A stretch of 64,000 nucleotides of DNA from Selenomonadales bacterium. Lineage in GTDB: Bacteria > Bacillota > Negativicutes > Sporomusales > UBA7701. The notes under the pieces were generated by a model, which saw only the letters and a list, made by a program, of their open reading frames with translations, searched no databases and was not told the origin of the DNA. The stretch lies in assembly GCA_029975165.1 (NCBI GenBank), contig JARKPR010000003.1:124001-188000 (forward strand), written 5' to 3'. Each line of letters begins with the position of its first letter. Positions within the stretch are counted from its first letter, which is position 1. Position numbers and translations under genes: made by a program. This document shows positions 42,563-45,853 of this stretch, piece after piece.

Positions 42563-43159
42563 GTGGAGGAGGGCAAGTCGTCGCCGCCGGCCCGCCAGTG
42601 TTTCCGCCTCGAGGAGCCGGCGCCGGATTTCCGCGCCCCGGCTTATCACCGGGGACGGGAGATCGAGGTGAGCCTGGGCGATTTCCGCGGCCGGTGGCTG
42701 CTGCTGTTTTTTTATTCCAGCGATTTCACGTTCGTCTGACCGACGGAGCTGGCGGCAGTTGCCGACATTTATCCGTGCCTGTGCGACTTCGGCGCGACGG
42801 CCGTCGCCATCAGCACGGACAGCGTGTATGCCCACAAGGTTTTTCACGATATTTCCCCCCACGGCAGCCAGGTGCAGTACCCGCTGCTGTCCGACCGGCC
42901 GGGGGGCATCGCCCGCGCTTACGGGGTATGGGGGGCGGAGACGGGCGCCGCGTACCGGGCGTCGTTCATCATCGACCCCGAGGGGCGCATCCGCTATTAT
43001 TCGGTTTACCCGCGGGAGGTGGGCCGCAATGTTAAGGAGATCGTGCGCACGCTGGCCGGCATCCAGTACGGCGAGGCGACCGGCGAGGGCGCGCCTGCCG
43101 GCTGGAAGCCGGGGATGCCGGGGATAAGCAGGGATTTCGCGTTGGTGGGCACGATATAG
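42563..43159 (+). CDS. Selenocysteine-containing peroxiredoxin (TGA read as Sec)
   Basis: AhpC/TSA-family peroxiredoxin of 198 residues with an in-frame TGA at codon 59 (42737-42739). The context DFTFV-TGA-PTEL matches the invariant FTFVCPTEL, so TGA occupies the peroxidatic cysteine. The frame is open and conserved on both sides ([13 protein letters not shown] before; [16 protein letters not shown] and [13 protein letters not shown] after). The C-terminal region that normally holds the resolving cysteine (GEVCPAGW) reads GEGAPAGW, so it would act as a 1-Sec enzyme needing an external reductant. A CxC (YPCLCDF) follows the active site. A SECIS-like hairpin lies just after TGA. GTG start at 42563 has GAGGGGGG upstream. 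Related PrxU is known in Eubacterium acidaminophilum. Confidence 0.88.
42743..42776 (+). promoter_or_regulatory. Candidate bacterial SECIS element
   Basis: Starting 3 nt after the TGA, ACGGA (42743-42747) pairs with TCCGT (42772-42776). An inner stem CGGC/GCCG, extended past one mismatch by GC and TA pairs, closes an AGTT apical loop at 42757-42760, about 18 nt from TGA. Distance and a G-T-containing loop fit SelB-binding hairpins. Folding was done by eye. Confidence 0.6.
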
Positions 43160-43162
43160 GGG

Positions 43163-43194
43163 AAACGCCGCTAGCAATGGTTAGCGGCGTTTTT
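43163..43194. terminator. Bidirectional terminator
   Basis: AAACGCCGCTA (43163-43173) pairs with TAGCGGCGTTT (43182-43192), followed by T. It separates the convergent selenoperoxiredoxin gene and hydrogenase operon. Confidence 0.92.
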
Positions 43195-43211: not shown

Positions 43212-44615
43212 TCAGATTATCAGCGGCTTTGCATTGGGGGCGTTGATGACATGGACGGCGCAGGTGAAACAGGGGTCGAACGACCGTATTACGCGGCCGA
43301 CCTCCACCAGGCTGCCCGGGTCGGCGACCGGGGTGCCGACGAGGGCTTGTTCGATCGGCCCCCGCTGGCCGCGGGCGTCGCGGGGCGAGAATTTCCAGGT
43401 GGTGGGGGTGACGATCTGGTGGTGGAGGATTTTGCCATCGGCGAATTTGAGCCAGTGGCCGAGAGCGCCGCGCATGACGTCGGTGAGTCCGGCGCCTTCG
43501 CCTATGGGCGGCAGTTCGTAGGGCCTGACGGTCGGCTGGCCGGGGACGAGCTGGGCGAGCCAGCTTTCGGCGAGGCGGCAAATTTTGAGCGCTTCCTGGG
43601 CGCGGGCGACGAGACGGTCGATGGCGCCTGTCCCCTGCCGGTATTCGCCGTTCAATATGCCCCGCGCCAGCGGGCCGCTTTCGAAGGCCAGTCCCTTGTA
43701 GCGGGGGGCTTTGGTCCAGGAATAGGCGTCGGGCTTGTCGCGGTCGGGGACGGTGTCCGCGGCCCCCGGCGGTCCGCCGCTTGCATCCCGGTACCAGCTG
43801 TAGCGGACGTCTTCGCTAATGAGGCTGGCGTCGAGGGGCTCGACCGGTCCGCCGCCGGTGACGACGCCGGCTTTGAAGGCCCGCTGGCCGGTGACCGGCG
43901 CGGGGAACATGCCGTAGGACATGAAATTGCCGCCGCTTTTGCCGATGGCGCGGTAGTCGGGGTAGTGGGCGGCTAGCAGTTGCGCGTCAGGCAGATGGGC
44001 GCCTTCGACGAAGTAGCGGATCTCCCGCAGGAGGGCGGTGGCGGCTTTGACGGTGTCGGCGTCGATCTGCCGGGTGACGCCGGTGACGAGGATGGTCTGC
44101 TGGTGGGGAGCCTTGGCACCGAACATGGCCATGAGCTCGTGGGCGAGGGCCGATACGTTGATAGCGGCGGAGAGGTGGTCCTGGAGGGCGGCGGTGGCTT
44201 GCGGGGGCAGGCGCAGGTCGTGTTTGGCGGGGTGCGGCGTCCAGGGCGGGGTGTCGGGCATGGCGGCGTAGTCGGGCATGGTGAGGAGGTAGAAGTGGCG
44301 GAGGTGGTTCTGGATGGTGTCGGCGGCGAGGATGAGGTTAGTGAGGTGTTGGCCGTTGGCGGTGGGGGCGAGGCCGGTGGCCTGCTGGAGGGCGAGGGCT
44401 TCGGCGACGGCGTGGGCGCTGGAGCAGATGCCGCAGATGCGCTGGGCGAAGAGGGCGGCGTCACGGATGTCGCGGCCGACGAGCATCTGTTCCCAGCCGC
44501 GGAAGAGGTGGCTGCCCACCCAGGCGTCGGTGACGCGGCCGCCTTCGATTTCGACGTCGACTCTCATCGGTTCGTGGATGCGGGTGACGGGAAAGAGGAT
44601 TTTTCGGGCCATCAT
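43212..44615 (-). CDS. [NiFe] uptake hydrogenase large subunit
   Basis: Catalytic subunit of 467 residues that binds the NiFe(CN)2CO centre. L1 motif RICGICSSAH near residue 60 and L2 motif DPCFTCAVH near the end supply the four Cys ligands. About 12 residues (VINAPNAKPLII) after the final His are the usual tail removed by a maturation protease, which is not in the window. The position that is Sec in [NiFeSe] enzymes is an ordinary Cys codon. The opening ILFPVTRIHEPMRVDVEIEGGRV is typical of HyaB/HupL. Its ATG overlaps the small-subunit stop by 4 bp, indicating coupling. Confidence 0.95.
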   Translation of the reverse strand: MMARKILFPVTRIHEPMRVDVEIEGGRVTDAWVGSHLFRGWEQMLVGRDIRDAALFAQRICGICSSAHAVAEALALQQATGLAPTANGQHLTNLILAADTIQNHLRHFYLLTMPDYAAMPDTPPWTPHPAKHDLRLPPQATAALQDHLSAAINVSALAHELMAMFGAKAPHQQTILVTGVTRQIDADTVKAATALLREIRYFVEGAHLPDAQLLAAHYPDYRAIGKSGGNFMSYGMFPAPVTGQRAFKAGVVTGGGPVEPLDASLISEDVRYSWYRDASGGPPGAADTVPDRDKPDAYSWTKAPRYKGLAFESGPLARGILNGEYRQGTGAIDRLVARAQEALKICRLAESWLAQLVPGQPTVRPYELPPIGEGAGLTDVMRGALGHWLKFADGKILHHQIVTPTTWKFSPRDARGQRGPIEQALVGTPVADPGSLVEVGRVIRSFDPCFTCAVHVINAPNAKPLII

Positions 44616-45853
44616 TCGTCCTTTCCGGTCTTGTCTTCGGTCCGCCAGAAGTTGATGAGGCGCTTGAGCAAAGATCGCCGGCGCCGGCGCGGAGCCGGGG
44701 CTTCGATTTTTCTGGCTTCGCTCAGGAGGGCGTTCTGGCGGCGGATGAGGTCGTCGAGCTCTTGTTTGACCTGGGCGAGGTTTTCCGGCGGGGTGGGGTC
44801 GCCGGGCTTGGTGCCGTCGAGGTATTGTTTGTGGATGCGGCGGGCGAAGACGCCGGCGGCGAGGTGGGTGGCGACCGCCCCAATACCGAGGGCGGCGGCG
44901 GCGGCGCCGATTTTGGCGACGCTGACGCGGACGGAGCGTGTCTTGATGCCGGGCAGGTGGCTGTAGAAGGGCATCGTGCCGTCGGGGAAATGGGGGCTGG
45001 CGCAGCCGATGCAGGGGGCGCCGGCCTTGACCGGCCAGTTGACGTAGTTGTTCCACTGGCGCAGGGGGCAGTCGGCATGGGTGACCGGCCCTTTGCAGCC
45101 GACTTTGTAGAGGCAGCCGTCCCCGCCGGGGAAGGCGGCGAAGATGCCGTCCTCGAACTGTTGGCGGCGCTGGCATTTGTCGTGGATGGTGTGGCCGAAG
45201 AACATTTTCGGCCGGTTGTAGGCGTCGAGGTCGGGCAGGCCGTAGAGCAGGAGGTGGCTGAAGGTGCCTGTCATCCAGTCGGGGTGGGACGGGCAGCCGG
45301 GGATGTTGACGATGACCCGGTCGGTGATGACGTCCCAGACGCCTTTGCCGCCGCCGGGGTTGGGGTGGGCGGCCGCCGGCCCGCCGAAGGCGGCGCAGTC
45401 GCCGACGGCGATTATGTAGCGGGCTTGGGGGGCGAATTCGGTGAGAGCCGCCAGGCCGGTGACCATTTCGCCATTACGGACGAAGACGTGGTTGAAACGG
45501 CCGTTGGCAGCGGTCATGACCGCGCCTTCGACGATGAGCCAGAATTTGCCGGCCTCGTGGGCGACGGTGTCTAGCAGCACCCGGACGGCGGCGTCGCCTT
45601 GGACGGTGTTGTACAGCCAGTGGTAGCGAAGGTCGAAGAATTCGGTTAGTAGCTGATAGAGGCTGGGGTTTCTGCTGTTGTCGAGCGAGATGCTCTCGCC
45701 GGTGCAGGAGCCGAGCTCGAGCCAGATGACGGGCGGCCGGGGCAGGATGCCTTCGGCGCCGGCCTGCCGCAGGAAGGGGGTGAGGATGCCGGCGAGGCCG
45801 GTGGCGGCCGTGGCCGTGAGGCAGAGGGTGAGGAATTCGCGTCTGGTGAGCAT
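44612..45853 (-). CDS. [NiFe] uptake hydrogenase small subunit, Tat-exported
   Basis: Electron-transfer subunit of 413 residues. A twin-arginine signal (TRREFL at residues 3-8, then a hydrophobic stretch to ~35) sends the folded dimer across the membrane. Cys ligands for the proximal (LGSCTGES, VGDCAAFGG, IPGCPSHPDW), distal and medial clusters (HDKCQRRQQF, GCLYKVGCKGPVTHADCPLRQWN, GAPCIGCASPHFPDGT) are all visible. A membrane segment lies at ~310-335. Beyond it is an unusual ~75-residue cytoplasmic tail with a predicted coiled coil (LAQVKQELDDLIRRQNALL) and a basic PRRRRRSLLKRL stretch. It follows the membrane protein gene by 4 bp. Confidence 0.95.
   Translation of the reverse strand: MLTRREFLTLCLTATAATGLAGILTPFLRQAGAEGILPRPPVIWLELGSCTGESISLDNSRNPSLYQLLTEFFDLRYHWLYNTVQGDAAVRVLLDTVAHEAGKFWLIVEGAVMTAANGRFNHVFVRNGEMVTGLAALTEFAPQARYIIAVGDCAAFGGPAAAHPNPGGGKGVWDVITDRVIVNIPGCPSHPDWMTGTFSHLLLYGLPDLDAYNRPKMFFGHTIHDKCQRRQQFEDGIFAAFPGGDGCLYKVGCKGPVTHADCPLRQWNNYVNWPVKAGAPCIGCASPHFPDGTMPFYSHLPGIKTRSVRVSVAKIGAAAAALGIGAVATHLAAGVFARRIHKQYLDGTKPGDPTPPENLAQVKQELDDLIRRQNALLSEARKIEAPAPRRRRRSLLKRLINFWRTEDKTGKDE

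Follow-up and report, generated by a model that had tools for sequence, protein, structure and literature searches.

A predicted selenocysteine-containing AhpC-type peroxiredoxin without the C-terminal resolving cysteine in a Selenomonadales bacterium

Introduction

Peroxiredoxins of the 1-Cys (Prx6) type have no resolving cysteine and are expected to depend on an external reductant, as is the protein described here, but they form a different subfamily, and the present protein carries selenocysteine (Sec). Typical 2-Cys peroxiredoxins (AhpC/Prx1) share its fold and active-site motif and provide its nearest solved structures, but differ in having Cys at the peroxidatic position, a C-terminal resolving Cys and no selenocysteine insertion element (SECIS). 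PrxU, the Sec-containing peroxiredoxin of Eubacterium acidaminophilum (NCBIfam NF040737), is likewise AhpC-type, with Sec at the peroxidatic position and a SECIS hairpin at an equal register, and nearly all PrxU-clade members sampled here lack a C-terminal resolving Cys; our protein differs in having neither the PrxU insertion (ELSKM) nor the PrxU Cys at -10, and in falling within a separate clade of the tree. That clade also contains the Sec peroxiredoxins of Bacillaceae, Alicyclobacillus and Desulfosporosinus (approximately 47-57% identity), which have the TGA, the SECIS and no resolving Cys, but differ in their N-terminal sequences and Cys positions and often carry the SECIS loop GGTC or CGTG in place of AGTT. 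Sec peroxiredoxins have long been known (Sohling et al. 2001, as cited in PMC13188914 and PMC9312934), and the bacterial SECIS has been described as a hairpin shortly after the UGA with a small apical loop containing a G (PMC1088965). Within the part of the literature covered, we found no paper on the present clade or on a link between Sec and the resolving Cys.

Here we describe such a gene in the window, by which we mean the whole stretch of 64,000 nucleotides of a Selenomonadales bacterium that was analysed (contig JARKPR010000003.1, positions 124,001 to 188,000). The gene is no oddity: it is a well-supported example of a type of selenoprotein that is already known, and shows a clade-level pattern.

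Results

The gene and the sequence directly 3' of it were read as follows:

42563-43159, plus strand: putative Sec-containing AhpC-type peroxiredoxin gene, GTG start, stop TAG at 43157-43159 (profile, alignment)
42737-42739, plus strand: TGA, putative selenocysteine codon for residue 59 at the peroxidatic position, with TGA there in 145 distinct AhpC-type homologues
43164-43192, plus strand: terminator-like inverted repeat (ACGCCGCTA...TAGCGGCGT, then a T run), read directly 3' of the gene

The frame comprises 198 codons and is open apart from one TGA at codon 59, and its GTG start aligns with the ATG of the genus orthologues. With the TGA read as Sec, the protein matches Pfam AhpC-TSA (PF00578) across the TGA (112.3 bits, cut-off 26), its active-site motif, DFTFVUPTE, contains the TxxC/U of AhpC/TSA peroxiredoxins, and the TGA pairs with the peroxidatic Cys both of solved 2-Cys peroxiredoxins and of Cys peroxiredoxins (FTFV-C-PTE). 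A six-frame scan for TGAs in open, codon-biased surroundings ranked this one first in the window. Translation, Pfam and alignment with Cys peroxiredoxins thus bear out the preliminary description, made from the sequence alone, which had placed an in-frame TGA at the peroxidatic position of an intact AhpC-type frame; its expectation that gene callers would split or truncate the gene proved correct too, the standard ORF list representing it only by a 111-residue in-frame piece from 42824 on. The inverted repeat was seen by direct reading and does not appear in the output of a separate scan. Downstream, ORFs resembling the large and small subunits of NiFe hydrogenase adjoin in antisense orientation (window 43212-45853, minus strand), and a NiFe hydrogenase large-subunit gene also borders the peroxiredoxin orthologue in several relatives.

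The 11 closest orthologues, all from other genomes of the order and class (G001-G005, G010, G013, G021-G023 and G040, with proteins 69-88% identical to that of the window) and making up with the window gene a set of 12 sequences, have one TGA each, in every case at the position of codon 59, and because of this conservation the TGA there is not a matter of chance. It is present in all four other genus members examined, and across the order. TGA stands at this position in 145 of 194 distinct AhpC-type homologues, drawn from named genomes, relatives and a phylum-wide sample, and the other 49 carry a Cys codon, proportions that reflect a sample centred on the query and are no unbiased census.

Downstream of the TGA lie two candidate elements of the SECIS:

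42753-42764, plus strand: putative SECIS apical hairpin CGGC-AGUU-GCCG, at a fixed register, with compensatory changes, absent from Cys homologues
42743-42776, plus strand: predicted longer SECIS stem enclosing the apical hairpin, from a single-sequence fold only

The apical loop (42757-42760) begins 18 nt after the TGA, and both the position of the hairpin and the G in its loop agree with what has been described for the SECIS of bacteria (PMC1088965). The single-sequence fold of 42740-42775 gave a z-score of -1.84, weak on its own; longer stretches around the element were not significant against shuffles, a scan for any hairpin downstream of the TGA came out barely above codon shuffles, and Rfam returned no SECIS match. 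The informative tests are those of fixed register and covariation only. The codons GCG-GCA-GTT-GCC are nearly invariant among the 12 orthologues, while other degenerate codons in this region vary. A stem of at least four pairs at one fixed register was found in 88 of 101 Sec representatives, compared with an expectation of about 28 when synonymous codons were shuffled, each gene drawing on its own codon set, and the hairpin was found at that register in none of 30 Cys representatives, counts that are approximate, the clade labels behind them having been set by motif, with some three rows misplaced relative to the tree. Across 38 diverse sequences, 87% of the cells in the helix are paired and 41 are doubly compensated (shuffle mean 12.7; 0 of 500 shuffles as high), and the covariation score of this register exceeds those of all 500 shuffles and is over double the best score among slid registers. 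The hairpin at 42753-42764 behaves as expected of a bacterial SECIS.

Near the C-terminus, the protein departs from typical 2-Cys peroxiredoxins, which are defined by a C-terminal resolving Cys that it lacks:

43082-43105, plus strand: GEGAPAGW motif, residues 174-181, at the resolving-Cys site of 2-Cys peroxiredoxins (translation, alignment)

Cys homologues read DEVCPARW at this site, which upholds the earlier claim that GEGAPAGW is without the resolving Cys. That claim had presented the absence as unusual, and in this respect it did not stand: the absence is real, but 143 of 145 distinct Sec AhpC-type proteins likewise have no Cys near the resolving position, and the C-terminal resolving Cys is kept in 48 of 49 Cys AhpC-type proteins, the exception being the protein L033. 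The loss of the C-terminal resolving Cys is thereby confirmed across the clade, and in this sample it is the rule for Sec AhpC-type proteins. The two Sec proteins that do have a Cys close to the resolving position both come from a Calditrichota MAG (L141), in which a single contig of 4193 bases carries two Sec AhpC-type peroxiredoxin genes in the same frame. L033/L078 (Negativicutes, G046) has Cys at the peroxidatic position, is nested in the Sec clade and has not regained the resolving Cys; the SECIS hairpin block of L033 is lost, and its genome is without a selA match. By appearance it is a natural revertant, and as a Cys member of the Sec clade that lacks the resolving Cys it offers a ready natural comparison.

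In the tree of AhpC-type homologues, Sec needs three changes and the resolving Cys four. The best tree has two Sec clades separated by Cys proteins, and supported branches force at least two changes in Sec; under an AU test a single Sec clade remained acceptable (p 0.306), so two independent origins of Sec, although demanded by the best tree, are not established. The window clade comprises Negativicutes, Clostridia, Desulfosporosinus and many Bacillaceae (Bacilli/Negativicutes/Clostridia), the last with Sec peroxiredoxins at loci L076-L127. The second Sec clade is the NCBI PrxU family. Its model, NF040737, gave 370-385 bits for the PrxU-clade members tested, 170.9 for the window protein and 160.4 for a Bacillus member of the window clade, against a curated cut-off of 270. 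PrxU, cited in the preliminary description as a precedent, is indeed a related Sec peroxiredoxin, but the window protein lies outside the curated family. For the 1-cysPrx_C domain the window protein scored 20.1, just under the cut-off of 21.1.

Structure prediction gave an AhpC fold (pLDDT 86.6), and the solved structures nearest to the model are those of AhpC, the top match being its resolving-Cys-to-Ala variant. A predicted helix (60-75) begins at U59; C72 and C74 are near its far end and are not conserved, and were ruled out as the resolving Cys. Confidence for the N-terminal residues 1-9 is under 50.

Discussion

Sequence evidence strongly supports the view that the window gene encodes a real selenoprotein, since the conserved TGA and the covarying hairpin are joined by tRNA-Sec genes and by the Sec machinery of complete congeners. 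A Cys peroxiredoxin struck by a nonsense mutation, or misread in sequencing, would also leave a TGA at this codon, and such a pseudogene would fit with the failure to find selA, selB and selD in the assembly of this genome. We reject this reading, to which we give practically no credence, because the same TGA occurs in all orthologues; moreover, the frame is intact past it, the SECIS covaries, there are two tRNA-Sec genes and complete relatives do have the Sec machinery. The preliminary description had proposed a search for the Sec genes, which succeeded in part: the assembly (G000; 96% complete, 100 contigs) contains two genes for tRNA-Sec (selC), with anticodon TCA, but selA, selB and selD gave nothing above the cut-off. 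Were these three truly lost from the lineage, UGA would be read otherwise or now be a stop, and it speaks for such a loss that the TGA gene persists in two genomes, G000 and G003, in which neither selA nor selD is detectable. Yet selA and selD are present in all complete congeners (G001, G002 and G004), some 16 kb apart on one contig, and in G004 parAB and hydF lie upstream of selA in the same block. With the DNA of the sel block as query, matches in G000 were confined to fragments, short or distant, and to a transporter-like gene from the end of the block, and a protein search with hydF gave nothing in G000 or G003 beyond distant matches of GTPase-like kind; G000 thus lacks both the block DNA and hydF, and G003 lacks hydF, which is what an unassembled block predicts, and the tRNA-Sec genes of G000 are still intact. 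With hydF, part of the same block in a complete congener, absent too, the lack of selA, selB and selD is read most simply, by a wide margin, as a gap in the assembly, an explanation that falls short of proof, and a true loss of Sec decoding seems very unlikely. The absence of selA and selB, which had been named beforehand as a ground against a selenoprotein, formally applies to G000 and is accounted for by the missing block, hydF included.

In the mechanism that we propose, the hairpin, which lies 18 nt further downstream, would act together with SelB and Sec-tRNA to recode UGA-59 and place Sec at the peroxidatic position; the selenolate would attack peroxide to give a selenenic acid, and an external thiol, either a small one or that of a thioredoxin-like protein, would reduce this acid directly in a 1-Sec cycle. 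Peroxidase activity by selenolate attack would follow from the family, and the 1-Sec step with an external reductant is the most likely course for a protein that has no C-terminal resolving Cys; the gene neighbourhoods of the window gene and its relatives contained no recurrent neighbour that names the reductant. Taken whole, as a selenoprotein that is an AhpC-fold peroxidase with a 1-Sec cycle and an external thiol, this explanation is probable. The resolving Cys might instead have been relocated towards the N-terminus:

42599-42601, plus strand: codon of Cys13, N-terminal, candidate relocated resolving residue (alignment; an N-terminal Cys is kept in most of the window clade)

U59 would then form a selenenylsulfide with Cys13 of its own or the partner subunit, in an atypical 2-Cys-like selenoprotein. 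Cys13 is kept in orthologues of the order, and an N-terminal Cys lies 40-62 residues before Sec in about 41 of 55 window-clade representatives, being rarer in that range elsewhere (PrxU clade 4/46, Cys proteins 9/30; these counts rest on the same motif-set labels and are approximate). However, the position of this Cys shifts (-46, -48, -51, -53), several members have lost it (for example L093, L120 and L124), the N-terminal segment of the model is of low confidence, and the PrxU clade keeps another Cys, at -10, so that no single substitute would serve all Sec proteins. Cys13 is the only plausible candidate for a substitute resolving residue on the present alignments, but we think it rather unlikely to act as one, and favour direct reduction by an external thiol.

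Sec at the peroxidatic position goes almost without exception with absence of the resolving Cys, which provides a testable rule on the effect of selenium on peroxiredoxin mechanism; since independent events are few, this correlation does not lend itself to a statistical test for convergence. It may be that the exchange of the peroxidatic Cys for Sec was coupled to loss of the resolving Cys, perhaps twice independently (in the window clade and in PrxU), with an N-terminal Cys taking over resolution in the window clade. This is a tentative and rather unlikely scenario, but if it were true, Sec chemistry would have rewired the reductive half of the peroxiredoxin cycle. A practical consequence concerns annotation: two tested members of this Sec peroxiredoxin clade of Negativicutes, Clostridia and many Bacillaceae reach no NCBIfam cut-off, and the window gene is a case of a selenoenzyme cut to a 111-residue fragment by standard ORF calling.

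The two tRNA-Sec genes of G000 (L010, C3:114974; L011, C3:52777) differ in sequence and lie outside the window, approximately 62 kb apart on one contig, and two strong tRNA-Sec matches were also found in G008, G011, G022, G024 and G027. Also outside the window, the genome has a second peroxiredoxin with an in-frame TGA, of the PrxQ/Bcp type (L270, C32:8793-9233; motif NTAGUTNEV), for which there are TGA-bearing matches in G001-G004.
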